A stretch of 64,000 nucleotides of DNA, taken from contig PNKZ01000023.1 of the NCBI GenBank assembly GCA_013822735.1, positions 1 through 64,000 of the forward strand. The letters run 5' to 3'. The position numbers were made by a program, and so were the translations under genes. The stretch comes from Pirellula sp. (GTDB lineage Bacteria; Planctomycetota; Planctomycetia; Pirellulales; PNKZ01). This document shows positions 3,507 through 42,363 of the stretch, piece after piece. The stretch's first letter is position 1, and every line of letters begins with the position of its first letter. The notes beneath the pieces are model-generated. The model saw nothing but the letters and a program-made list of their open reading frames with translations, was not told where the DNA came from and did no database searches.

Positions 3507-4070
3507 GTGGGACGTATTAGCACGGCGTTTCGAGCGTTCTTCCGCGCGCTCGGCGACGCCGATCTTGCCAAGCAGATCGACGAGATTCTCGCGAGCGGCA
3601 GTGCCGCCGCCGGGCCTGCGTCGAAGACCGCGGCCCTGCCTGCGCCCGTCGTCTCGCCGAAGCCTGCGCCACCGAAGGCCCAGCCGAGCCGTAGCGACGC
3701 GTTGAGCTTGCTCTCGGCCTTGCAGCGCGAGGCCCGGCTGGTCGACTTCCTTAAGGAAAAGCTCGACGGCTACAGCGATGCCCAGATCGGCGCTGCCGCC
3801 CGCGACGTGCATCGCGATAGCGGTACGGTGCTCGAACGGATGTTTGCCTTGCGCCCGTTGACCGAAGCCGCCGAAGGGGCGGCGCTCGACGTGGCCGCCG
3901 GCTTCGACCCGCTTCGCTATCAACTCACGGGCAACGTCGTCGGACAGCCGCCGTTTCACGGCACGCTCCGTCACCACGGCTGGGAAGCGACGAAGTGTGA
4001 ACTGCCGGCCTGGACCGGCGGCGAAGCGGCGCAAAAGATCGTGGCGCCGATGGAAGTGGAAGTCCGTTAG
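3507..4070 (+). CDS. DUF2760 domain protein, Hsp70-associated
   Basis: A 187-residue protein. The GTG start is chosen because AAAGGAG lies 5 bases upstream and the frame before it runs through repeat sequence. Residues 1-30 form an amphipathic N-terminus (TAFRAFFRALGDADLAKQIDEIL), followed by an Ala/Pro linker (~31-62). The DUF2760 domain (~64-187) includes LLSALQREARLVDFLKE and a C-terminal PFHGTLRHHGWEA segment. I recall DUF2760 proteins being encoded beside atypical Hsp70 genes, and here two follow at once, only 27 bp away. Its function is unknown; a cofactor or adaptor role for these Hsp70s is an inference from context. No signal peptide is present. Confidence 0.82.
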   Translation: MGRISTAFRAFFRALGDADLAKQIDEILASGSAAAGPASKTAALPAPVVSPKPAPPKAQPSRSDALSLLSALQREARLVDFLKEKLDGYSDAQIGAAARDVHRDSGTVLERMFALRPLTEAAEGAALDVAAGFDPLRYQLTGNVVGQPPFHGTLRHHGWEATKCELPAWTGGEAAQKIVAPMEVEVR

Positions 4071-4097
4071 TTGATTGACAGAAAGTGACCTGCGCCG

Positions 4098-5912
4098 ATG
4101 TCCGCTCGCTTTGCTTTGGGAATCGATCTCGGGACGACGAACTCCGTCTTGGCGTACGCGCCGCTCGATGACGCTGCCACATCGCCGACGGTACTGCCGA
4201 TTCCGCAACTCACGGCCCCCGGCACGGTCGAAAGCCGGCCGCTGCTGCCGTCGTTCCTCTACTTGGCCGGCGCACACGATGCCGGTCAGGCCGGCTACGA
4301 CTTACCTTGGGCGAGCGGGCGCGATTTCGTCGTCGGCGAATGGGCCCGGAAGCAATCGGCCGAGAATGCCACGCGCACCGTGGCCGCGGCCAAGAGCTGG
4401 CTCACCTATTCGCGCGTCGATCGTCGCAAGCCGATCTTGCCGTGGGGCGCACCGGACGAAGTGGCGAAGATCTCGCCGGTCGAAGCGTCGCGCCGGTATC
4501 TCGAACACTTGGTCGCCGCCTGGGAATATGCCCATCCCGACGCCCCGTTTGCCGAACAATCGATCGTGCTCACGGTGCCGGCCTCGTTTGACGCCGCAGC
4601 TCGGGAGCTGACGCGCGAAGCGGCGCTCGCCGCCGGCTTTCCCGAATCGTTCATTCTGCTCGAAGAACCGCAGGCCGCGGTCTACGCTTGGCTGGCCGAC
4701 GTCGGCGACGATTGGCGCAAGCTGTTGGCGATTGGCGATTCGCTGCTCGTCTGCGACATCGGCGGCGGCACCACCGACTTTACGCTCGTGGAAGTGGCGG
4801 GAGCGGCCGGTGCGCTCACGCTCGAACGGGCGGCGGTCGGCAACCATACGCTCGTCGGCGGCGACAACATGGACCTGGCGCTGGCACATTACGCGGCCGG
4901 GCTCTTCGAGAAGCAAGGCGTAAAGCTCGATGCTTGGCAATCGGTCGGCCTCTGGCATGCCTGCCGGGCCGCGAAAGAATCGTTGCTCGCCGAAGGGGGC
5001 GCGGAGCGACATCCGGTTTCGGTGCTCGGACGCGGCAGCAGGCTGATCGGCGGCACGGTTACCACGGAACTCGCGCGCGACGACGTGATGCAGCTGCTCG
5101 TCGACGGGTTCTTCCCGCCGTGCGAAGCTTCGGCCAAGCCGGTGAAGCAGCGCGCCAGCGGCTTCCGCGAGCTCGGGCTGCCGTACGAAAGCGACACGGC
5201 CGTGACGCGGCACTTGGCGGCGTTTCTCAGCACGAACGGCGTGACGAATGCCGCGGCTTCGCCGGACGGCGCGGCGGCACAAGGCAAGCCGCTCCATGTA
5301 TTGTTCAACGGCGGCGTGTTCAAAGCCGAAACGCTTCGCTATCGCGTGCTCGACGTGCTCGAAGGTTGGTGCGGCACGTCGCGCAAGCCGCAAGCCTTGG
5401 CAGGCGACATCGACTTGGATTGCTCCGTGGCGCGCGGGGCGGCGTTTTATGCGCGGTCGAAACTCGGCGGCGGCATTCGCATTCGCGGCGGCGCGGCCCG
5501 CTCGTATTATGTCGGCATCGAATCGGCGGGGCTCGCGATTCCCGGCGCACCGCGACCGCTCCGAGCGTTGTGCGTCGTGCCGTTCGGCATGGAAGAAGGA
5601 ACGGAGATCGACGTGCCGAGCGACGAGATCGGGCTCGTGGTCGGCGAGCCGGCGGAGTTTCGCTTCTTTAGTTCGGCCGTGCGCAAGGAAGATCGGCCCG
5701 GCGATTTGATTCCGCGCTGGACGGAAGACGAGATCATCGAAACCGATACGCTGGCGACCGAACTGCCGGCCTCGGCCGAATCGGACGACGGTTACGTGCC
5801 GGTCCGGTTTCTCGCGAAGCTCACGGAACTCGGCGTCTTCGAACTCTGGTGCGCCGCCGCCAACGGCGCCGACCGCTGGAAACTCGAATTCAGCGTCCGT
5901 GAGAACAGTTGA
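4098..5912 (+). CDS. Atypical Hsp70-family ATPase (first of a pair)
   Basis: A 604-residue cytoplasmic protein with the Hsp70/actin-fold ATPase domain: phosphate-1 loop GIDLGTTNS at residues 8-16, phosphate-2 CDIGGGTTDFTL at 219-230, GGDNMDLALAHY at ~254-265, and adenosine motif VLFNGGVF at 401-408. Unlike DnaK, no recognisable beta-sandwich substrate domain or lid follows; only about 130 residues remain after the nucleotide domain. It resembles the diverged YegD-like or planctomycete Hsp70 group, for which substrates are unknown. It lies 27 bp after the DUF2760 gene and is followed after 198 bp by a second, longer paralogue. It is not the main DnaK, since no dnaJ or grpE is nearby. Confidence 0.9.
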   Translation: MSARFALGIDLGTTNSVLAYAPLDDAATSPTVLPIPQLTAPGTVESRPLLPSFLYLAGAHDAGQAGYDLPWASGRDFVVGEWARKQSAENATRTVAAAKSWLTYSRVDRRKPILPWGAPDEVAKISPVEASRRYLEHLVAAWEYAHPDAPFAEQSIVLTVPASFDAAARELTREAALAAGFPESFILLEEPQAAVYAWLADVGDDWRKLLAIGDSLLVCDIGGGTTDFTLVEVAGAAGALTLERAAVGNHTLVGGDNMDLALAHYAAGLFEKQGVKLDAWQSVGLWHACRAAKESLLAEGGAERHPVSVLGRGSRLIGGTVTTELARDDVMQLLVDGFFPPCEASAKPVKQRASGFRELGLPYESDTAVTRHLAAFLSTNGVTNAAASPDGAAAQGKPLHVLFNGGVFKAETLRYRVLDVLEGWCGTSRKPQALAGDIDLDCSVARGAAFYARSKLGGGIRIRGGAARSYYVGIESAGLAIPGAPRPLRALCVVPFGMEEGTEIDVPSDEIGLVVGEPAEFRFFSSAVRKEDRPGDLIPRWTEDEIIETDTLATELPASAESDDGYVPVRFLAKLTELGVFELWCAAANGADRWKLEFSVRENS

Positions 5913-5926
5913 GATTTTCCAGCAAT

Positions 5927-6078
5927 GGGGATGTGGGGATAAGAGGAGATAAGGGAGATGACAAACTAGAGTTTGTTTAGATTCTTTTCTATTGTTTGAA
6001 TGAGATGATTCAAGCGAGCGTCCTCTTCGTATTTCTGATCTCTTATCTCCCTCATCTCCTCCTATCTCCATATCTCCC
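5927..6078. repeat. Imperfect purine-rich inverted repeat between the Hsp70 genes
   Basis: The left arm (~5927-5959, rich in GGGGATAAGAGGAGAT-type words) is complementary, with a few mismatches, to the right arm (~6045-6078). A small perfect stem, CAAAC-taga-GTTTG, lies between them. The arrangement is like the one between rmlD and the rhomboid gene but with different sequence. It could impose differential expression of the two Hsp70 genes. Confidence 0.6.
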
Positions 6079-6110
6079 TTGCCGCCTCTGCCCTGCTCTG
6101 CTGAATTCGT

Positions 6111-9014
6111 ATGGCTGCCATGAGTCGTGATCCTGACGCCCTGCCGAGTCGTTATGTCGTCGGCATCGATTTGGGGACGACGAATTCGGCGCTGGCGTAC
6201 ATCGATACGGAAGCCCCGTCGGGCGGCGTACAAAACTTAGCCGTGCAAACGCTGGCCGTGCCGCAAATTGTGGCGCCCGGCGTGATCGAGCCGCGCGAGA
6301 CGTTGCCGTCGTTTCACTATGCGCCGGCCGCCGGAGAGTTTGTGCCGGGCGCACTGCGCTTGCCGTGGGAGTCGGCCGAGCACGACTACTGCGTCGGCGT
6401 GTTTGCTCGCGACCATGGGGAAACGGTGCCGGGCCGGTTGATCGCTTCGGCGAAGAGCTGGCTTTGCCATAGCGGCGTTGATCGGATGGCCGAGCTCTTG
6501 CCGTGGCATGGTGCCGCGGACGTGCCGAAGCTGTCGCCGGTCGACGTCGGGGCCCGGTATCTCGAACACTTTCGCCGCACGTGGAACCATCGCTTTCCAC
6601 AACATCCGCTGGAGCGGCAGGAGCTCGTCGTTACGCTGCCGGCTTCGTTCGACGAAGTGGCGCGCGAGCTCACGGTGCGCAGCGCGAAAGCCGCCGGGCT
6701 CGAACGCTTGGTGCTGTTGGAAGAACCGCAGGCCGCGTTCTATGCCTGGATCGCGGCGCATCCGCAGGAGTGGCAGCAGGCCGTGCAGCCTGGGCAGAAG
6801 ATTCTCATCTGCGATATCGGCGGCGGCACGAGCGACTTCACGCTCTTGCGCGTGCGCGCGGGGAGCGACGGCCGCGTGCAGTTTCACCGCGTGGCGGTCG
6901 GCGAGCATTTGATCTTGGGGGGCGACAATCTTGACCTGGCGCTCGCACATCACATCGAGCGCAAGCTCACGGGCGACGGTAACCTCGAGCCGCGCACGTG
7001 GGCCGTGCTCATGAGGAGCTGCCGGAAGATCAAAGAGACGCTGCTCGGGCCCAGCCCGCCGGAGCGGATCACCGTGAACTTGCCGGGGGGCGGCTCACGC
7101 ATGATCGGCGGCTCGCGCAGCCTGGAACTCGCGACGGCCGAGGCGCAGCAGATTCTGATCGACGGCTTTTTGCCGAATGCGGCGCTCGACGACCGCCCGC
7201 AAACCCGCCGCAGCGGCTTTCAGGAATTCGGACTGCCGTTCGCTCCGGACGCCGGGATAACTCGCTATCTTGCCCAGTTTCTCACGGCGCATCGCCACGT
7301 GGCGACGGACGACGCACGAGCTGACGCATATCAGGATCCGGCCCGTCCGGACGTCGTGCTTTTCAACGGCGGGTTCTTTGAGTCGACGCTGCTCCGCGAA
7401 CGGTTGCTCGAGGTGCTCGGCGGTTGGTTCACTCCCAAGGGCGGGCCTCGGTGGCGGCCGCAAGTGCTCGAGAACGACCGGCTCGACTTGGCCGTGGCGC
7501 GCGGAGCCGCGTACTACGGGCTGGTCCGCCGCGGCCAAGGCGTGCGCATCGCGGCAGGCCTGGCGAGGTCGTACTACGTGGGCGTGGGACCGGTCGCCCT
7601 CGGCGAAGGTGCGGCCCCCGTCGAGGCGGCGGTTTGCTTACTCTCGGCGGGCGTGGAAGAGGGACGAGGCTTCGATCTCGAAGGGCGTACGTTCGAGCTG
7701 CGGATACGCGAGCCGGTCGAGTTTCCGCTGTACTACTCCAGCACGCGCCTGACCGATCCGATCGGCTCGCTCGTGCCGGTCGACCCTTTGCAGATGACCG
7801 CCCTGCCGCCGATTCGCACGGTGCTGCAGACTTCGAAGAAGGGACAGGCAGAGACGATTCATGTCGCCCTGCATGCGAAGCTGACGGAGATCGGCACACT
7901 GGAGCTTTGGTGCACTCCGGCGGCGACCGAAGGTGCGAAGGCGTCGACGGCCGTGCAGTGGCGGCTGCAGTTCGACATTCGCTCGGCCGTGCAGACCGAT
8001 CGTTCGGCGCATGGTGGAGCCGGCGAAAGCGGCGGCGTGGTAGATGCGGCGGCGGCGGAGCAGGCACGGGAGCAGATCCGCCGCACGTTCGCCGGAGTCG
8101 ACGCCGCGCACAAGCCGGAGTCGCTCATCAAGCGCCTGGAGGGGGCTTTGGAAGGCCGCCGGTCGGAATGGCCGGTAACGCTGCTACGCGAGCTGTGGCA
8201 AGAACTGCTCGACCAGGAACAAGGCCGGCGGCTTTCGGAGGAACATGAAGCCCGCTGGCTGTGGCTTACCGGCTTTTCGCTCCGGCCAGGGTACGGCTTG
8301 GCCGTGGACGATTGGCGAACCGCGCAGACCTGGAAACTTCTGCAGGCTAAGCGGTATTTCCATGGGCCGCGCGTCCGCGTGGAGTGGCTGATTCTCTGGC
8401 GGCGCATCGCGGGCGGTCTGACGGCGGGCCAACAGCGGGCCTTAGCCGAACCGCTGGTTGCGCCACTGCGGGCCTATTTGCTGTCGCTGCGCAGTGCCAA
8501 GCCGGGCGGTGCGCGCAAGCCAGACTTCGGACTCGCGGGCCACGAAACGGCCGAGGCTTGGCGACTCCTCGGGTCGCTGGAATTGCTCGACGTGACGCTG
8601 AAGGAAGAGATCGCCGCGGCGGCGCTGGCGATTGCGGCCAAGGAGAAGACCCCGGCCGTGCAGGACGCGCTGGTCTGGACGGTCGGGCGCATCGGAAGTC
8701 GGCAGCCGATGTATGGACCTTTGAATACGGTCGTGCCGCGCGAATCGGCGGCCGCTTGGACGTCGGCCATCGCGAAACTCGCCGGCGGCGAACAGACCGC
8801 GGCGTTTGCGATGATGCAACTTACGCGAAAGACCGGCGACCGGCATCGCGACGTCGACGAACACGCACGGCAAACGACAATCCGCAATCTGCGCGAGATG
8901 AACGCCGCGCCGCATCTGATCGAGTTGGTCGCCGAAGGCGGTACGCTGGCGGGTGAGGAGCAGGGACGCATGTTCGGCGAAAGCTTGCCGCAAGGGCTGC
9001 GCCTGGCGCAATAA
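6111..9014 (+). CDS. Atypical Hsp70-family ATPase with C-terminal DUF3731-like region
   Basis: A 967-residue protein. The N-terminal ~630 residues are a paralogue of the preceding Hsp70: GIDLGTTNS at 18-26, LICDIGGGTSDFTLL at 232-246, LGGDNLDLALAHH, and VLFNGGFF near residue 415. Beyond that lies a ~300-residue helical region (about 660-960, with LLRELWQELLD and WLWLTGFSLRPGYG) that corresponds to the DUF3731 extension found in some Hsp70-like proteins. No DnaK-type substrate-binding sandwich is recognised. The start may be this ATG or the one three codons later. The role is unknown; together with the DUF2760 gene it forms a three-gene module. Confidence 0.88.
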   Translation: MAAMSRDPDALPSRYVVGIDLGTTNSALAYIDTEAPSGGVQNLAVQTLAVPQIVAPGVIEPRETLPSFHYAPAAGEFVPGALRLPWESAEHDYCVGVFARDHGETVPGRLIASAKSWLCHSGVDRMAELLPWHGAADVPKLSPVDVGARYLEHFRRTWNHRFPQHPLERQELVVTLPASFDEVARELTVRSAKAAGLERLVLLEEPQAAFYAWIAAHPQEWQQAVQPGQKILICDIGGGTSDFTLLRVRAGSDGRVQFHRVAVGEHLILGGDNLDLALAHHIERKLTGDGNLEPRTWAVLMRSCRKIKETLLGPSPPERITVNLPGGGSRMIGGSRSLELATAEAQQILIDGFLPNAALDDRPQTRRSGFQEFGLPFAPDAGITRYLAQFLTAHRHVATDDARADAYQDPARPDVVLFNGGFFESTLLRERLLEVLGGWFTPKGGPRWRPQVLENDRLDLAVARGAAYYGLVRRGQGVRIAAGLARSYYVGVGPVALGEGAAPVEAAVCLLSAGVEEGRGFDLEGRTFELRIREPVEFPLYYSSTRLTDPIGSLVPVDPLQMTALPPIRTVLQTSKKGQAETIHVALHAKLTEIGTLELWCTPAATEGAKASTAVQWRLQFDIRSAVQTDRSAHGGAGESGGVVDAAAAEQAREQIRRTFAGVDAAHKPESLIKRLEGALEGRRSEWPVTLLRELWQELLDQEQGRRLSEEHEARWLWLTGFSLRPGYGLAVDDWRTAQTWKLLQAKRYFHGPRVRVEWLILWRRIAGGLTAGQQRALAEPLVAPLRAYLLSLRSAKPGGARKPDFGLAGHETAEAWRLLGSLELLDVTLKEEIAAAALAIAAKEKTPAVQDALVWTVGRIGSRQPMYGPLNTVVPRESAAAWTSAIAKLAGGEQTAAFAMMQLTRKTGDRHRDVDEHARQTTIRNLREMNAAPHLIELVAEGGTLAGEEQGRMFGESLPQGLRLAQ

Positions 9015-9036: not shown

Positions 9037-11103
9037 CTACGCAACGACCAAGTCCGCGGCAGGGGGCGGCATCGGGCAATCGAGCGCGTCGGAAACCGTG
9101 CGGAGTAGCTCCGCTTCGTCGATGGTGAGTCGCCCGTCGTTGCCGATGGTTTCCGCGCAAGCCATGAGGACCTGCTGCTTTACCGAACCCGCGGAGGCCG
9201 CGAGTTCGACAAGGGCATCGTCGAGGGCCGAGTAGCCGGTTTGCTCGACGTCGAGCAGCGCAAAGGCGCCGTTCAGTCCTAGCTTTGCGGCTCCGGCGGT
9301 GAATGCTTGCGAGGCCTGGGACTCTTGGTCCGCATTTCCCACGCGCGCCAAGGCCGATAAGACGACCCGCAACGGCATGGCGACCGAGGCGAGTTCGTTA
9401 TGGCAGACGTTCACCGGACGGCTCGGCCGGAAGAACGCTACAAGATGTTTGAAGATGATTCGCTGCAAGCAGTATTCAAACAGGCTCACTTTGCGATCGG
9501 CGCGGATCAAGGCGACCACTGTTTGGCGAAATTGTTCAAACTCGCCGGGCGAGAGTTGCCGCAGCGCCGACATGGCGAGTTGCGCGAGGGGCAAACGTGC
9601 GGCAGGCCCGAGCGCGGTGGTCTGCGCGATCAGTTCTCGAACGCGCTCCGACGTCTCGCGGCCGAGCGATCTGGCGAGCATCTGCAGGCCGGGCTCGTCG
9701 TCCGTCGGGTCGGCCTCAAGGAGCAAGGCATAGATAACGCCTGCTGCGCCTGGAGGTTTGTGAATGGCGTCGGCGAGCGATTCGGGCAGTTGATCGATGA
9801 GCGCTGCGGCGTAGTCGAAGTGACGCAGTTTTGGCGCGCCCACATCCGCGACGGCCTGGGCGGCGGTGACTTGCGGCCCGTTTGTCGCCGATGCTTCGCC
9901 GGCTAACGCCGCCGCACCGACGACGGCGCCGATCGGCCCGCGTCCCATGTTGCCGAGTACGGGAAACGGAAAAACGCCCCCTGCTCCGGGCTTGGCGGTC
10001 TTGGACTCGGCCGCCTTCGATTCCTCGTCAGGCGACGGCCACGGCAAACGTTCCGCGGAGAAGTCGCCGTCGAAGGTCGGCTCAATACGGCGGACGCGGT
10101 CGATCAGCGGCGGGTGGGTCGCCAACAACGAGAGGAAGCTCGCTTTCATCCCGTTGCCGAAGTACATGTGGCTTGCTTGCTCCGCCTGGCTGTTCTTGAT
10201 GCGCGAGCCGACGGCGCCGAGTTTCTTCAGAGCTCCGCCGATCCCGCCGGGATTGCGCGTGTATTGCACGGCGGATGCGTCGGCCAAGTATTCGCGCTGC
10301 CGCGAGACCGCACTCTTGATTAGGTGCCCGAAGAAGACGCCGATGTAGCCGATGACGTACAGGCCGAGGCCGATGAGGAATATGGCGAGCAGGATCCCGC
10401 CGCCGTCGTTTTTCTTGTTGTCGCTCGAGCTACTCGACGAACTGCGAGGGCGCGTTTCCATCAGCATGCGCATGACGACGTAGCCGATCATGCTCAGCAG
10501 CAAAATGCCGTGCAACAGGCCGATCAACCTGATATTCAGCCGCATGTCGCCGTTAAGAATGTGGCTGAATTCGTGCGCGATGACCCCTTGGAGTTCATCG
10601 CGCGTCAAAGAATTCACGGCGCCGCGCGTCACGCCGATGACGGCGTCCGTCGTCGTAAAGCCCGCGGCGAAAGCGTTGATCTCCGTTTCCGACTCCAGGA
10701 TATAGACGGCGGGAACCGGCACGCCTGAAGCGAGCGCCATTTCTTCCACGACATTGAGCAGTCGGCGTTCGCGCCAATCGTGCGTCGCGGAGGCAAGCAG
10801 ACGCCCGCCCAGTGTCTCCGCAACATTTTTCCCTCCCCCGGAGAGCGTGGCGGTGCGATAAAGACTGCCGGCGAGAATAGTGGTTCCGACACAGACTGCC
10901 ACGGCGGCGAGCAGGGCCGGATTCCAGAGCGTCTGCAAGTCGATGGGCCGGCCGTCACCGGAATCGCCGGCAAGCAACAGCACGCCGGCGACGACGAGGT
11001 AAACCGCCGCCACGATGGCAACCACCGCGCCTGCAAACAGGAAGATGAGGCGGCCTGACTTTCGCCGGGCGTCATCTTGATGTTGAAAGAAGTCCATCGC
11101 CAC
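9037..11103 (-). CDS. Membrane-bound M48-family zinc metalloprotease with C-terminal extension
   Basis: A 688-residue integral membrane protein of the HtpX/Ste24 M48 family. The zinc motif HEFSH is at residues 177-181, and the third ligand is probably Glu271 in REYLADAS. Membrane segments are predicted at ~18-45, 62-82, 192-212 and 237-262, with a Ser-rich loop (~220-228). After residue ~330 there is a ~350-residue extension absent from HtpX. Its end (IRADRKVSLFEY; NDGRLTIDEAELL) resembles the helical TerB-like fold. The gene starts 3 bp after the lemA stop, so the two form an operon; lemA-M48 pairs are common and suggest LemA helps or is processed by the protease. It runs convergently into the Hsp70 gene, 22 bp apart. 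Confidence 0.9.
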   Translation of the reverse strand: MAMDFFQHQDDARRKSGRLIFLFAGAVVAIVAAVYLVVAGVLLLAGDSGDGRPIDLQTLWNPALLAAVAVCVGTTILAGSLYRTATLSGGGKNVAETLGGRLLASATHDWRERRLLNVVEEMALASGVPVPAVYILESETEINAFAAGFTTTDAVIGVTRGAVNSLTRDELQGVIAHEFSHILNGDMRLNIRLIGLLHGILLLSMIGYVVMRMLMETRPRSSSSSSSDNKKNDGGGILLAIFLIGLGLYVIGYIGVFFGHLIKSAVSRQREYLADASAVQYTRNPGGIGGALKKLGAVGSRIKNSQAEQASHMYFGNGMKASFLSLLATHPPLIDRVRRIEPTFDGDFSAERLPWPSPDEESKAAESKTAKPGAGGVFPFPVLGNMGRGPIGAVVGAAALAGEASATNGPQVTAAQAVADVGAPKLRHFDYAAALIDQLPESLADAIHKPPGAAGVIYALLLEADPTDDEPGLQMLARSLGRETSERVRELIAQTTALGPAARLPLAQLAMSALRQLSPGEFEQFRQTVVALIRADRKVSLFEYCLQRIIFKHLVAFFRPSRPVNVCHNELASVAMPLRVVLSALARVGNADQESQASQAFTAGAAKLGLNGAFALLDVEQTGYSALDDALVELAASAGSVKQQVLMACAETIGNDGRLTIDEAELLRTVSDALDCPMPPPAADLVVA

Positions 11104-11106
11104 GGC

Positions 11107-11724
11107 TTAGAACGAAACCTTGGGCGCTTCGCGCTCGGTCGGGTTCTCGATCTCAAACAACTTGGCCTCGGTGAAGCCGGAAAATCCGGCGACGATGACA
11201 TTCGGGAACGTTTCGCGGCTGGTGTTGTAGGCCATTACCGCGTCGTTGTAACCCTGGCGCGAGAATGCCACCTTGTTTTCCGTGGAGGTAAGTTCTTCCT
11301 GAAGTTGCAACATGTTCGTGTTGGCCTTCAGGTCCGGGTACGCTTCGGCGACGGCAAAAAGCCTCGTCAACGTACCAGTGAGCTGAGCTTCAGCGGAAGC
11401 AAGGCCTTGCATGGCCGATGGATCGCCGGGTGAAGCGGCGGCGCGCTGGCCGGCGGTTGCCGCTTGATTGCGCGCCGCGATGACGGCTTCCAGCGTTTCC
11501 TTCTCATGCTTCATGTAACCCTTGGCCACTTCGACGAGATTGGGGATCAAGTCGTTGCGGCGCTTCAACTGCACGTCGATCTGTGCGAAAGCGTTCTTGT
11601 AGCGGTTGCGAAGGCTGACCAGCGTGTTGTAGATGCCGATGAAGTAGAACAAAACCAAAACGGCAAAGCCGGCGACGGCCAATAAGGCGATCATGCCGGT
11701 CGAAAGGTCGGCGAACAGCGACAT
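11107..11724 (-). CDS. lemA: LemA family protein
   Basis: A 205-residue protein with one N-terminal membrane segment (~10-28, IALLAVAGFAVLVLFYFIGIYN), followed by the helical LemA domain with the signature LRNRYKNAFAQIDVQLKRR and DLIPNLVEVAKGY. The frame is open for more than 100 codons upstream. The start at 11724 is chosen because an AGGAG lies about 9 bases before it, the length then fits the family, and the upstream extension would run across the kinase promoter. LemA proteins are membrane-anchored and of poorly defined function, often paired with M48 proteases as here. Confidence 0.92.
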   Translation of the reverse strand: MSLFADLSTGMIALLAVAGFAVLVLFYFIGIYNTLVSLRNRYKNAFAQIDVQLKRRNDLIPNLVEVAKGYMKHEKETLEAVIAARNQAATAGQRAAASPGDPSAMQGLASAEAQLTGTLTRLFAVAEAYPDLKANTNMLQLQEELTSTENKVAFSRQGYNDAVMAYNTSRETFPNVIVAGFSGFTEAKLFEIENPTEREAPKVSF

Positions 11725-11875
11725 CGATCTCGTCTCCTGGTAAGGTTTGCTCGGCGGCAAGCTGCGGAACGGCGCGCGCCGGGCCGTCTTGCGGCCAATG
11801 TACCGTGGCACTCGTCGACTGTATAGAATACGCGGAAAGTCGCTGCGGCGTGCATACTTTTCGAGGTTTTCTCCT

Positions 11876-14800
11876 ATGGCCGGTCTCGACCATGATCGCA
11901 ACGTTCTGTTCGGCGTTCTGGCCTGGCAAGCCGGATTGGTCGAACGGGGCGCATTGTTGGAGGCGATGTACGACTGCACGATCGGTAAGTGTCGCGACCT
12001 GCCGGCCGCGCTCACCGCCCGCGGTATGCTCGGCGACGCCGACATCCGATGGTTGGAAGACGCCATGCAACGCCACGTGCATGGACATGCAGACGACGCG
12101 AAGCGAACTCTCGCGAGCCTCGATGAGGTGGATTCGCTGAAGAAAGAGCTCGAAGGTGCCGCCGGCGTCGATCAGATGACGACGCTTGCCGCGTCTAATG
12201 AAATCGACCCGCGCGCTCAAACCGTTGCCGCGCAGAAAACAATCGATCAACAACCCGAGCTGGGATTCGAGTTAGGACCGAAGTCGGCCGGACAATCCGA
12301 CAGTTCCCCGGTCGACTCGGGGTCGGATCGCCACGCGCGGTTTCGCGTAGTGCGCTCGCATGCGCGCGGCGGATTGGGTGAGGTCTTCGTGGCCGTCGAC
12401 ACGGAACTACGCCGCGACGTGGCGCTCAAGCAGATCTTGCCCAAACAGGCGACCAACGAAACGAGCCGAGCGAGGTTTTTGCTGGAGGCGGAAATCACCG
12501 GCAATCTTGAGCACCCGGGCGTTGTGCCGGTGTACGCGTTAGGAAGCCAAGCCGACGGATGTCCCTATTACGCCATGCGCTTCATTCGAGGCGAGAGCCT
12601 AGAAGATGCGATTCAAAGTCTGCACAGCGAGGCACATTGGGACGCCGGTGGTGAGAAAGCTTTAGAGTTGCGCGACGTGTTGGGCCGTTTCATCGCCGTG
12701 TGCAATACGATGGAATACGCGCATAGTCGCGGCATCATCCATCGCGACATCAAGCCCGAAAACATCATGCTCGGGCGTTATGGCGAAACGCTGGTCGTCG
12801 ATTGGGGGCTGGCACGGCCGTATCGCAATATTGATTCCGCCTTAGATTCCGAGCAAGAGCTTGCCGATTTGGCCGGTGAGCCGCAAGTGTCGCAATCGAC
12901 GGCGCGACCGACCGTGATGGGGTCGGTCGTCGGAACCCCGCAATTCATGAGTCCCGAGCAGGCCTTGGGACGACTCGACCTCATGGGACCGACGTCGGAC
13001 GTTTACAGTTTGGGAGCGACCCTCTACGCGTTGCTCACCGACCAGCCGCCGTTCACCTCGCCGGATGTTCGGCGAGTGCTGCAGGACGTTCAGCAGGGCA
13101 CTTTCTTGGCTCCGCGACAGGTGCGACCAGACGTTCCCGCGCCGTTGGAAGCGGTGTGCCTGAAGGCAATGAAACTGAAGCCGGAAGATCGCTATGCTTC
13201 GGCACGAGCGCTGGCGGCCGAAATCGAACGCTGGCTGGCGGACGAACCGGTAGCGGCCTACGGCGAAACGCTGTTCGAGCGAACGCAACGGTGGATGCGC
13301 CGCCACAAAACTTGGACTCAAGCTGCCGCCGTCGCCGTCATGGCGGTTGCCTGTGTTGCGGCGACGGCATATGTTCGCGAGGCATCGCTGCGCGCCGATT
13401 TGCAGACGGCATTGGAACACGAGGCTACGGCTCGTTCGGAGGCCGTCGCCGCTCGCAAGTCGGCGGAGGCGAATTCGCAACGGGCCGAACAGCAGAGCGC
13501 CTTGGCGCTTGCCACGTTGAAGACGGTGTTATTCGATATTCAGGTGCGCTTAAAGAATTTGCCGGCGACGCACTCGGTGCGCCTGAGCATGCTCGATAAG
13601 GTCGTCGACGGGTTGCAGCAGGTGACGCGGAGTCTGGATACCGCGCCGGAAGCGGATCTCAGTTTGGTTCGGGCACACCTCGACATCGGGGATATCTACT
13701 GGAACACGGGGACCGGCGACGGTTCCGGTGCGACGCAGCTTGCCGAAGAGCAATATCGTCGAGCGATGGAAATGGCAGAAAAACTTCGCACTGTTCCGGC
13801 GCAACGCGAACAGGCGGAAGCAGATTTGGCGGCCGCGTATCAGCGACTAGGCGACGTCGGCATGCAGCGCGGGCAGTGGACTGCAGGAGTGGAGTGGCTC
13901 AAAAAGTCGCTCGCATTGCGGGAAGAAATCGCGGCGAGGAAGCCGGCGGATCTAAAGGCCCGCAGCGATCTGGCCGCATCGATTCAGCGACTAGGGCTCG
14001 TACATCTATTGCAGGATGAGTTGCCGGAGGCGGAAAAGTTGTTTGCACGATTCCTCGAGTTGAGTCGGAGCTTGCAGGTCGCCGATCCTCAGAACGCCGA
14101 ATACTTGAGAAACCTGTCGGTTGCGGAAGAGCGCATGGGAGATGTGGCTCTACGAAAGGGGGACGTGAAGCAGGCGGAGCCGGCCTTTCGTGAAAGCCTG
14201 AAACTCCGTCGACGATTGATCGAGGACGATCCGGAGAATGCCGCCGCGCAACGAGATCTCTCCGTGACCCTGGATCGACTGGCCGATTTGGCACGCGGTC
14301 GCGGCGAAGCGGAGGCCGCCGACGCGCTACTGCAGGAGAGTCTTACTATCAGAAAACAACTGTACGAAGCCGATGCCGCCAACATGCAAACGCTTCGGGA
14401 TCTAAGCGTCTCGTATGCGATGCTTGGCGATGCCGCGCTGGAGCGCAATAAGACCCGCGAAGCGGCGGAGTACTTCCGCTTCTATTTGGAAATGGTGGAA
14501 CGGCTCACGCAAAGTGATCCCGGCAATGCGCAGTATCAACGGGATTTGGCCGCGGCCCACGATCGCGTGAGCCAAGTCGGCGTACGTCTCGGAAATTGGA
14601 AAGCGGCCTTGGCCTCGGGACGACGGCGAACGGAGATTTGGGCGGCGTTGGTGGATGCGGAGCCGACCAACGCCGATTACTTGCGCGAGCTTTCGACCGG
14701 ATATCGAGAATTGAGCGAGATTGAACTGCAAGTCGGTGAGTTGGGAGCGGTGCGTGCTACCAGCGAAGAATACCTGACGCTCGCGAGGAAACGCGCCGCT

Positions 14801-40614: not shown

Positions 40615-42363
40615 GTGTCCGAGAAATTCAACCCTTTGAAGACCTGGCTCGGCGTTACCGCCGGGAAACCGAGCTATTACCAACTTCTTGGGCTCGAAAA
40701 CTTCGAAAGCGAACCTCCGGTCATTGCAGAAGCGGCCGATCGGGCCATTCGGAAAGTGCAGAAGCACCTGCAAGGCGAACATCGCGAGACGGCAGAAAAG
40801 CTGGCCCGCGATTTAGCAACTGTCAAAAGCGTGCTGACTTCCTCCGAAAAGCGCCAAGCATACGATGCGCAATTGCGCGGCAAGCTGGGCGTAAGCTCGT
40901 CGCCGCGGCTTGCCCCCGCCCCCGCCGCGGCCGTCGTATTGCCCCAGGCCATTGAAGCGGCCGACTCGCCCACGATGATGCTTCCTCCCGGTGCGCTTTC
41001 CGCCGCGCTGGGGTTGCCGAGCGCCGCACTTCCTCCTTCCACGTTGCCCCCGCAGGCTCACGGGCCTGGCGGAGCATATGGTGCTCCTCCAAATCCTTAC
41101 GGTGCGCCGAATCCGACCGGTTACGGCGACCCCGGCGCGTTCGGCCTGCCGCAGCCGCAAGCCGGTTCGAATCCCTTCGCTCCGCAGGGAGCCTATCCGC
41201 AGCCGTATGGTCAGGAGAATCAGACGCCCGGCTATTCGGCTCCGTACGGCGGTGAGCAAGTCGGCCAGTTCAACTTTGGTCCGCCGGGCGCGGCGCCCTT
41301 GGCCTCCCCGACGCCGATGGCGGCCAACCCGATGATGCCGCAAGCTGCCGGACCATCGGCCGGAGCCGGCGTGCCGTTCGCGCCGAAGACTGCCGGGGTT
41401 CGCACACGCGTCGCCGGTCGCAAACAGCAACAATCCAATTTCACCGTGGCTCTCGCCGTACTCGGCGTAGCGGCCGTCGTGTTGGTGATTGTGATCGTCG
41501 TCGTGAGTCAACAAAAGGCCGATCACGACGCGGAACAGGCGAAACTGACTCCGCCTGTCGCGCCTCATCCGCAGCCGGTCGTCGCTCCGTTGCCGTCGCA
41601 AAACATTCCGCTCCCTCCCGTAATTCCGAGTTCGGGCAATTCCGCGATGACGCCGACGGTGTTCGAACCGCCGATGGAATCCGAATCGGAACGCGAACGT
41701 CGCATGGCTGCGGAGAAGGCCGCGATGGCGGAGTCTCCGAAGCCGGCCATGACAACCGAGCCCGCTCCGAAGGAAGCCGTGCCGGTCGGAATGCGCGGCG
41801 TCGAAGTGACACCGGTGGTCATGGAGGCGAGCCTGCCCGAGGATGCGGTTCGCGCGAAATCGGTGCCGACGATGCTCTCCGCCGCTCGCACGGCGATTCG
41901 CACGCGCGATTACTTCAAAGCGGAAGACGTGATCCTGCAGGCCCAAATCACCGCCGATTCTCCGGCACTCGTGCAGTCGACTCTCGATCATGCCCGCGCG
42001 TTGGACTTGGTGCGTAGCTTCTGGGAAGGAGTTCGCGAAGGGATCAAGGGACTCAAGGCGGGGGACGAACTCACCTTCAATGCCAAGACCGCGGTGGTCG
42101 TGCGACATGACGAGGTGAATCTCGTCGTCAAGCAAGACAACAAAGAGATTCCGCTCGTGATCGACAAGCTGATCCCGGGCCTGGCCGCGCAACTCGCGGA
42201 ACGCGGGCTCGCGAAGGATGCCGCTTCGACGAAACTCGTCGTCGGGATGTTCCTCGCGCTCGATCAGTCGGGCGACCATGCCGCGGGACGGACGCTGTTC
42301 GACGAAGCGGCCGCCGGCGGACTCGACGTCGGCACGCTCCGTCCGATCATCGAAGCCAAGTAG
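40615..42363 (+). CDS. Membrane protein with degenerate J-like N-terminal domain
   Basis: A 582-residue protein starting at GTG, with GAGG 7 bases upstream. Residues ~20-90 (YYQLLGLENFESEPPVIAEAADRAIRKVQKHLQ, then LTSSEKRQAYDAQLRGKLG) resemble a J-domain in length and in the closing YDAQL helix, but the HPD tripeptide that activates Hsp70 is absent. A Pro/Gly/Ala-rich segment (~95-265, with PNPYGAPNP and YPQPYG) precedes one membrane helix (~276-298). A charged linker and a ~190-residue C-terminal domain follow. Such proteins recur in planctomycetes without assigned function. The N-terminus would be cytoplasmic. Confidence 0.75.
   Translation: MSEKFNPLKTWLGVTAGKPSYYQLLGLENFESEPPVIAEAADRAIRKVQKHLQGEHRETAEKLARDLATVKSVLTSSEKRQAYDAQLRGKLGVSSSPRLAPAPAAAVVLPQAIEAADSPTMMLPPGALSAALGLPSAALPPSTLPPQAHGPGGAYGAPPNPYGAPNPTGYGDPGAFGLPQPQAGSNPFAPQGAYPQPYGQENQTPGYSAPYGGEQVGQFNFGPPGAAPLASPTPMAANPMMPQAAGPSAGAGVPFAPKTAGVRTRVAGRKQQQSNFTVALAVLGVAAVVLVIVIVVVSQQKADHDAEQAKLTPPVAPHPQPVVAPLPSQNIPLPPVIPSSGNSAMTPTVFEPPMESESERERRMAAEKAAMAESPKPAMTTEPAPKEAVPVGMRGVEVTPVVMEASLPEDAVRAKSVPTMLSAARTAIRTRDYFKAEDVILQAQITADSPALVQSTLDHARALDLVRSFWEGVREGIKGLKAGDELTFNAKTAVVVRHDEVNLVVKQDNKEIPLVIDKLIPGLAAQLAERGLAKDAASTKLVVGMFLALDQSGDHAAGRTLFDEAAAGGLDVGTLRPIIEAK

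Follow-up and report, generated by a model that had tools for sequence, protein, structure and literature searches.

The window analysed here, a 64,000-nucleotide stretch of a Pirellula sp. genome (contig PNKZ01000023.1, positions 1 to 64,000), carries three genes, D, S and L, which find strong support as a co-retained, stand-alone module. All three are encoded on the + strand, D first, then S and L. Gene D (3507..4070) has a GTG start at 3507 with AGGAG upstream and encodes a DUF2760 protein of 187 amino acids that matched PF10816 (1.6e-45; 154.4 bits against a gathering score of 25) and was modelled by AlphaFold2 (AF2) with a predicted local distance difference test score (pLDDT) of 90. Gene S (4098..5912) encodes a short Hsp70 of 604 amino acids, recognised by PF00012 (1.6e-15) and by its family alignment, and gene L (6111..9014) a long Hsp70 of 967 amino acids (PF00012, 1.6e-16; AF2 pLDDT 78) that carries, C-terminal to its ATPase, the DUF3731 family PF12531 (1.9e-73; 247.8 bits against a gathering score of 25). 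Neither dnaJ nor grpE lies beside these genes in the window, and the only other Hsp70 of this genome is a canonical DnaK encoded on a separate contig. These results agree with an earlier note on this DNA, which had described a DUF2760 gene followed by two paralogous Hsp70-type ATPases, one of them ending in DUF3731, with no dnaJ or grpE nearby. When compared with the curated models of the DnaK, HscA and HscC types (TIGR02350, TIGR01991 and others), S and L reached no more than 87 bits, where the cut-offs are 620 or higher.

Domain organisation of the two Hsp70 proteins

The nucleotide-binding domain (NBD) of S (4098..5462) was placed by profile alignment to E. coli DnaK, to which S is about 26% identical over the aligned columns, and by motif counts. 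It is followed at 5490..5909 (residues ~465-604) by a C-terminal beta domain, in the position of substrate-binding domain beta (SBDbeta) of DnaK, as indicated by conservation in the S family alignment and by homology to the corresponding part of L. In L, the NBD (6150..7550) was supported by the family alignment and by a Foldseek match to the DnaK NBD 7rax, with a target-normalised template-modelling (TM) score of 0.75. The beta domain of L (7569..7976, residues 487-622) was assigned from DSSP on the model and from Foldseek matches to 7kzu and 7krv, and the all-helical DUF3731 (8235..9005, residues 709-965) falls within helices 646-955 of the model. In both proteins a conserved stretch of beta type, about 150 residues long, lies downstream of the ATPase, and the description of the short Hsp70 in the earlier note as truncated after its ATPase has to be given up. 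Judged by its sequence, S is instead a lidless Hsp70 that stops after the beta domain, with neither the helical SBDalpha lid nor DUF3731.

The AF2 model of L matched DnaK chains comprising the NBD and SBDbeta (7kzu, 7krv) with target-normalised TM scores of 0.67-0.72 over about 635 columns. As the isolated NBD match (0.75 over 393 residues) would by our arithmetic yield no more than about 0.55 on a target of 540 residues, part of SBDbeta must also be superposed on the L model. This suggests that L probably carries an SBDbeta-like domain at the level of fold, and the homologous C-terminal domain of S may be SBDbeta-like as well. In the predicted structure DUF3731 occupies the place of the DnaK lid; it has no sequence relative in the PDB. 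The Foldseek matches of L also included Hsp110 (Sse1, 2qxl; 3c7n), ranked below DnaK, and structures of the ribosome-associated complex (RAC).

Co-retention and gene order of D, S and L

In a set of 149 class-level genomes, DUF3731 was found in 104 and DUF2760 in 105, with both present in 102, neither in 42 and only five genomes discordant: two with L only (G076, G142) and three with D only (G132, G144, G148), the latter 68-83% complete. Among 299 Pseudomonadota, 20 had both, none had L only, 277 had neither and two had D only (G251, at a contig edge, and Allochromatium). The corresponding Fisher p values (6e-31 and 3e-29) ignore shared ancestry and overstate independence; the repeated losses of both genes together carry more weight. 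In the class-level set, S orthologues (at least 775 bits) were found in the same genomes as D and L, genomes without D and L had DnaK-level Hsp70 matches only (E>=1e-24), and the genes were non-adjacent in most genomes, yet were retained or lost jointly. Presence varied inside families and even within one genus, in which one genome (G002) has the genes and two others (G025, G037) have only DnaK-level Hsp70s; DUF3731 was found in 24 of 58 Myxococcota genomes.

Gene order was evaluated at 80 loci, located via S in named genomes, and was D-S-L in 55 of these; many of the remaining loci were at a contig edge or belonged to planctomycetes with L elsewhere. The loci span eight phyla, with Planctomycetota, Verrucomicrobiota, Acidobacteriota, Pseudomonadota, Myxococcota, desulfobacterial lineages, Lentisphaerota and a single metagenome-assembled genome of Bacillota represented, and in several Pseudomonadota the stop codon of D and the start of S overlap by a few bases. 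When 17 genomes, chosen mostly because L did not adjoin S, were searched for L, it was encoded elsewhere in 14, and the other three (Allochromatium and two Thiocapsa) had no L-like protein. The Thiodictyon plasmid pTs485 likewise carries D-S with no L adjoining or elsewhere on that plasmid, so that four Chromatiaceae records have D and S without L. Because these lineages keep D and S, L is dispensable. Replacement of L by another Hsp70 in Chromatiaceae was considered and rejected, as no L-like candidate was present. The absence of L there, together with the adjacency of D and S in 10 of the 20 planctomycete loci in which D and L are apart, identifies D and S as the core, with L as a nearly constant third member. 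S also evolves more slowly than L (mean pairwise distances of 1.18 and 1.65), and is monophyletic in the S/L tree, in which the outgroup is very distant (stem 3.8) and L apparently paraphyletic.

The earlier note had proposed a stand-alone module, and the near-strict three-way co-occurrence and the D-S-L order conserved across phyla bear this out. It had named two observations that would count against the proposal, and each was encountered in part: loss of one member was confined to a single lineage, the Chromatiaceae, and gene order was loose in Planctomycetota, where the unlinked genes are still co-retained.

No linked dnaJ or grpE was conserved alongside the D-S-L loci, and the flanks of all loci together gave a single weak match to a J-domain. 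A conserved fourth gene was also sought and rejected, since among 75 open reading frames flanking the loci no Pfam family occurred in more than two. Two loci have genes between S and L (a sigma factor and a nuclease in one, a solute-binding protein in the other), which are not conserved. Intact D-S-L was present on two different conjugative Bradyrhizobium plasmids; on one of them, pCB82_1, it lies about 1 kb upstream of groES-groEL in a mobile chaperone island. On pTs485, D-S lies between genes with an anti-phage annotation (DUF1156, phospholipase D-like) and a gene for a TIR protein. In one myxobacterial locus D is followed by two successive S-type Hsp70 matches, of which the second runs off the end of the contig; S may be duplicated there, or a broken L may have been scored as S.

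In the window, the gap between S and L (5913..6110, +) is a dispersed inverted-repeat element with arms of about 40 bases, which folds as RNA into a hairpin of -76.5 kcal/mol (z -6.2). Partial copies occur at 18 other places in the genome, often as inverted pairs, and the element is possibly similar to repetitive extragenic palindromes or miniature inverted-repeat transposable elements. Convergent to L is an M48 peptidase gene (9037-11103, -), with a gene for what appears to be a LemA-like protein (11107-12066, -) directly upstream of it; an M48 gene was also near the cassette at two other loci. The J-like open reading frame noticed previously at 40.6 kb is present (40615-42363, +) and is unlinked to the cassette; its product has a degenerate J-like N-terminus without HPD, a Pro/Gly-rich middle and a hydrophobic segment.

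ATPase motifs, J-protein contacts and the DUF2760 protein

Both Hsp70 proteins had been described as having intact nucleotide-binding motifs, and family alignments, profile alignment to DnaK and motif counts over 98 S and 72 L proteins upheld this. The positions equivalent to D8, K70, P143, R151, E171, T199 and D201 of E. coli DnaK are conserved in S, with T225 of S as the counterpart of T199, and those equivalent to K70, E171, T199 and D201 are near-invariant in both S and L, which thus possess the phosphate loops and the catalytic Lys, Thr, Asp and Glu that define ATPases of the Hsp70 superfamily. As the main catalytic motifs are kept in nearly all members, both proteins should bind and hydrolyse ATP. 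The residues through which DnaK meets its J-proteins are a different matter. The J-domain is contacted by R167 of DnaK and by the interdomain linker (PMC8215388), and the DnaK motif R167-x-x-N170-E171-P172-T173 reads x-L-L-E-E-P-Q in S: R167 is lost in S, the changes of N170 to E and T173 to Q are found in nearly all S and most L proteins, and a hydrophobic linker of the VLLLD type is absent from both. E. coli HscA and HscC retain R, N and T at this motif.

The D proteins consist of an N-terminal hydrophobic helix, a variable linker and a conserved core formed by a helical hairpin and a small beta part, and their sequence has no relative in the PDB. Two D alignments contained no conserved HPD, and D matched no J family. 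When a transmembrane helix was called from a 19-residue window of mean hydropathy above 1.6 located before the core, 26 of 88 D proteins had one; it is plain in Vibrio, Photobacterium, Moritella, Methylococcales and their relatives, and in several of these lineages it is followed by basic residues or by a repetitive VEKIVE linker. By the positive-inside rule, such a sequence after the helix would place the core of D on the cytoplasmic side of the membrane.

A proposed dedicated Hsp70 system and its alternatives

We put forward that D, S and L form one dedicated Hsp70 system distinct from DnaK, HscA and HscC, with D as targeting factor or co-chaperone, S as core and L as partner, and we hold the chances of this to be about even. 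S would be the core ATP-driven chaperone, combining an ATPase with an SBDbeta-like domain and lacking a lid, and D its obligate targeting factor and co-chaperone, taking the place of a J-protein. In many lineages an inner-membrane anchor might hold D with its conserved core facing the cytoplasm, and D might recruit S to the membrane. L, a paralogous partner with DUF3731 in exchange for the lid, may modulate S or broaden the range of clients, and could be lost. The clients are proposed to form a limited and non-essential group linked to stress, and probably lie at the membrane or close to it. We infer the physical complex, the J-independence, the direction of regulation and the membrane clients. 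A more specific version, a widespread bacterial machine free of J-proteins in which membrane-anchored DUF2760 drives the ATPase cycle of the lidless Hsp70 and the DUF3731-Hsp70 is an Hsp110-like partner, is tentative and we regard it as unlikely.

Several observations weigh against a dedicated system of this kind. The AF2 model of D had no fold match to a J-domain or to any PDB entry (none at E<1), and for this reason a J-like role for D is functional guesswork. A clear transmembrane helix is found in only about 30% of D proteins, the D protein of the window has a short hydrophobic helix only, and an amphipathic N-terminal helix in the D proteins without a transmembrane helix was rejected, as it scored no better than shuffles with a crude motif locator. 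The adaptor role that the earlier note had suggested for DUF2760 is favoured by the anchor seen in several lineages. Profile-profile comparison (hhalign) detected no similarity between the beta domain and SBDbeta of DnaK, so that the absence of recognisable substrate-binding domains, also suggested previously, stands by sequence and is probably wrong by predicted fold. R167 is retained in 24 of 72 L proteins, and L might thus still meet a J-protein encoded elsewhere. No fusion proteins among D, S and L were found, and 1548-residue frames reported in one genus were rejected as S-L fusions because they carry a stop codon between S and L.

The retention of R167 in a third of L proteins would also fit S and L being ordinary extra Hsp70s that use the DnaJ and GrpE of the cell, in a cassette that is merely a co-inherited operon without a dedicated mechanism. 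Such extra Hsp70s are common in bacteria (PMC8265645), and mild phenotypes are in keeping with them; however, co-inheritance of an operon cannot account for the co-retention of unlinked genes in Planctomycetota, N170, T173 and the linker are altered, and a dedicated non-Hsp70 gene, D, is kept with S and L, so that we consider this explanation quite unlikely. Location of the cassette on plasmids, and of the Thiodictyon D-S among anti-phage genes, could mean that D-S-L is an accessory or defence-type island gene set. This is hardly to be credited, as there was no credible PADLOC match (L matched PDC-M61B only at 3.7e-5, inside the ATPase), the genes were not found in phages, defence neighbours are not conserved, and in many chromosomes they are single-copy and stable.

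Two further alternatives accept a joint system and assign its parts differently. L could act on S as an Hsp110-like partner, with nucleotide-exchange and holdase functions, in a triad mirroring the eukaryotic J-protein, Hsp70 and Hsp110 with unrelated or paralogous parts. The length of this Hsp70 paralogue and its extended helical C-terminus, the appearance of Hsp110 in its Foldseek list and its dispensability, which resembles that of exchange factors for HscA and HscC (PMC8215388), are consistent with such a role; the lower rank of the Hsp110 matches, the lack of a PDB sequence relative of DUF3731, Hsp110 included, and the full hydrolysis motifs of L argue against it, and we judge it unlikely. 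S could otherwise be a regulator like Ssz1, which is also lidless, with D as a zuotin-like partner and L or DnaK as the working chaperone, as in the RAC of yeast. The fold matches of L include RAC structures, and D and S are the tightest pair. We find this assignment distinctly improbable, since S retains all hydrolysis residues, D has no J-domain fold match, and the effector would vanish where D and S stay and L is lost.

Compared with known systems, the proposed dedicated D-S-L system shares with DnaK/DnaJ/GrpE the Hsp70 ATPase fold and catalytic residues of S and L and the predicted SBDbeta-like domain of L, and differs in the missing lid of S, the DUF3731 of L, the missing VLLLD linker and changed J-contact residues, and in having gene D as partner instead of a linked J-protein or GrpE. 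A 2021 review recognises three bacterial Hsp70 types, DnaK, HscA and HscC, each with J-proteins; HscA and HscC do not require an exchange factor and rely on J-proteins dedicated to them, which for HscC are membrane-anchored (PMC8215388). HscC with its tail-anchored J-proteins DjlB and DjlC resembles the D-S pair in being a non-essential, divergent Hsp70 whose membrane-anchored partner is encoded close by, and D-S would be a solution parallel to it in which the partner is unrelated; HscC, however, keeps R, N and T, and its partners have J-domains, unlike D. Eukaryotic Hsp70 with Hsp110 or Grp170 likewise pairs Hsp70 paralogues of unequal length, as is only proposed for S and L, and differs in that DUF3731 lacks a PDB sequence relative. 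The yeast arrangement of Ssz1-zuotin and Ssb resembles the triad in joining a lidless Hsp70, a small partner and a second Hsp70, whereas S keeps its hydrolysis residues, the fold of D is not that of a J-protein, and L is the member that can be lost.

The Myxococcus xanthus protein MXAN_5323 (WP_011555288.1), a non-essential Hsp70 of 925 amino acids with a domain match to the NBD only, could not substitute for dnaK in E. coli, and sporulation and survival of H2O2 were mildly lowered when it was deleted (PMC8265645). As the L protein of M. dinghuensis has the same length (925 amino acids from the first ATG), MXAN_5323 is probably an L orthologue; this link comes from length and domain type, not from sequence, which also weighs against the proposed system. 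MXAN_5323 was studied as a single Hsp70, and the main text is silent on neighbouring genes and a DUF2760 partner (PMC8265645). We found no literature naming DUF2760, DUF3731 or their Pfam or InterPro identifiers, in a search that left subscription papers mostly outside, so that earlier notice is possible. If the proposal is true, D-S-L would be a further bacterial Hsp70 type, spanning phyla, that differs in its helper and has a pair of Hsp70 paralogues, and the J-independence of an Hsp70 could be put directly to the test. Two DUF families would also gain a function and a tie to an existing mutant phenotype in M. xanthus.

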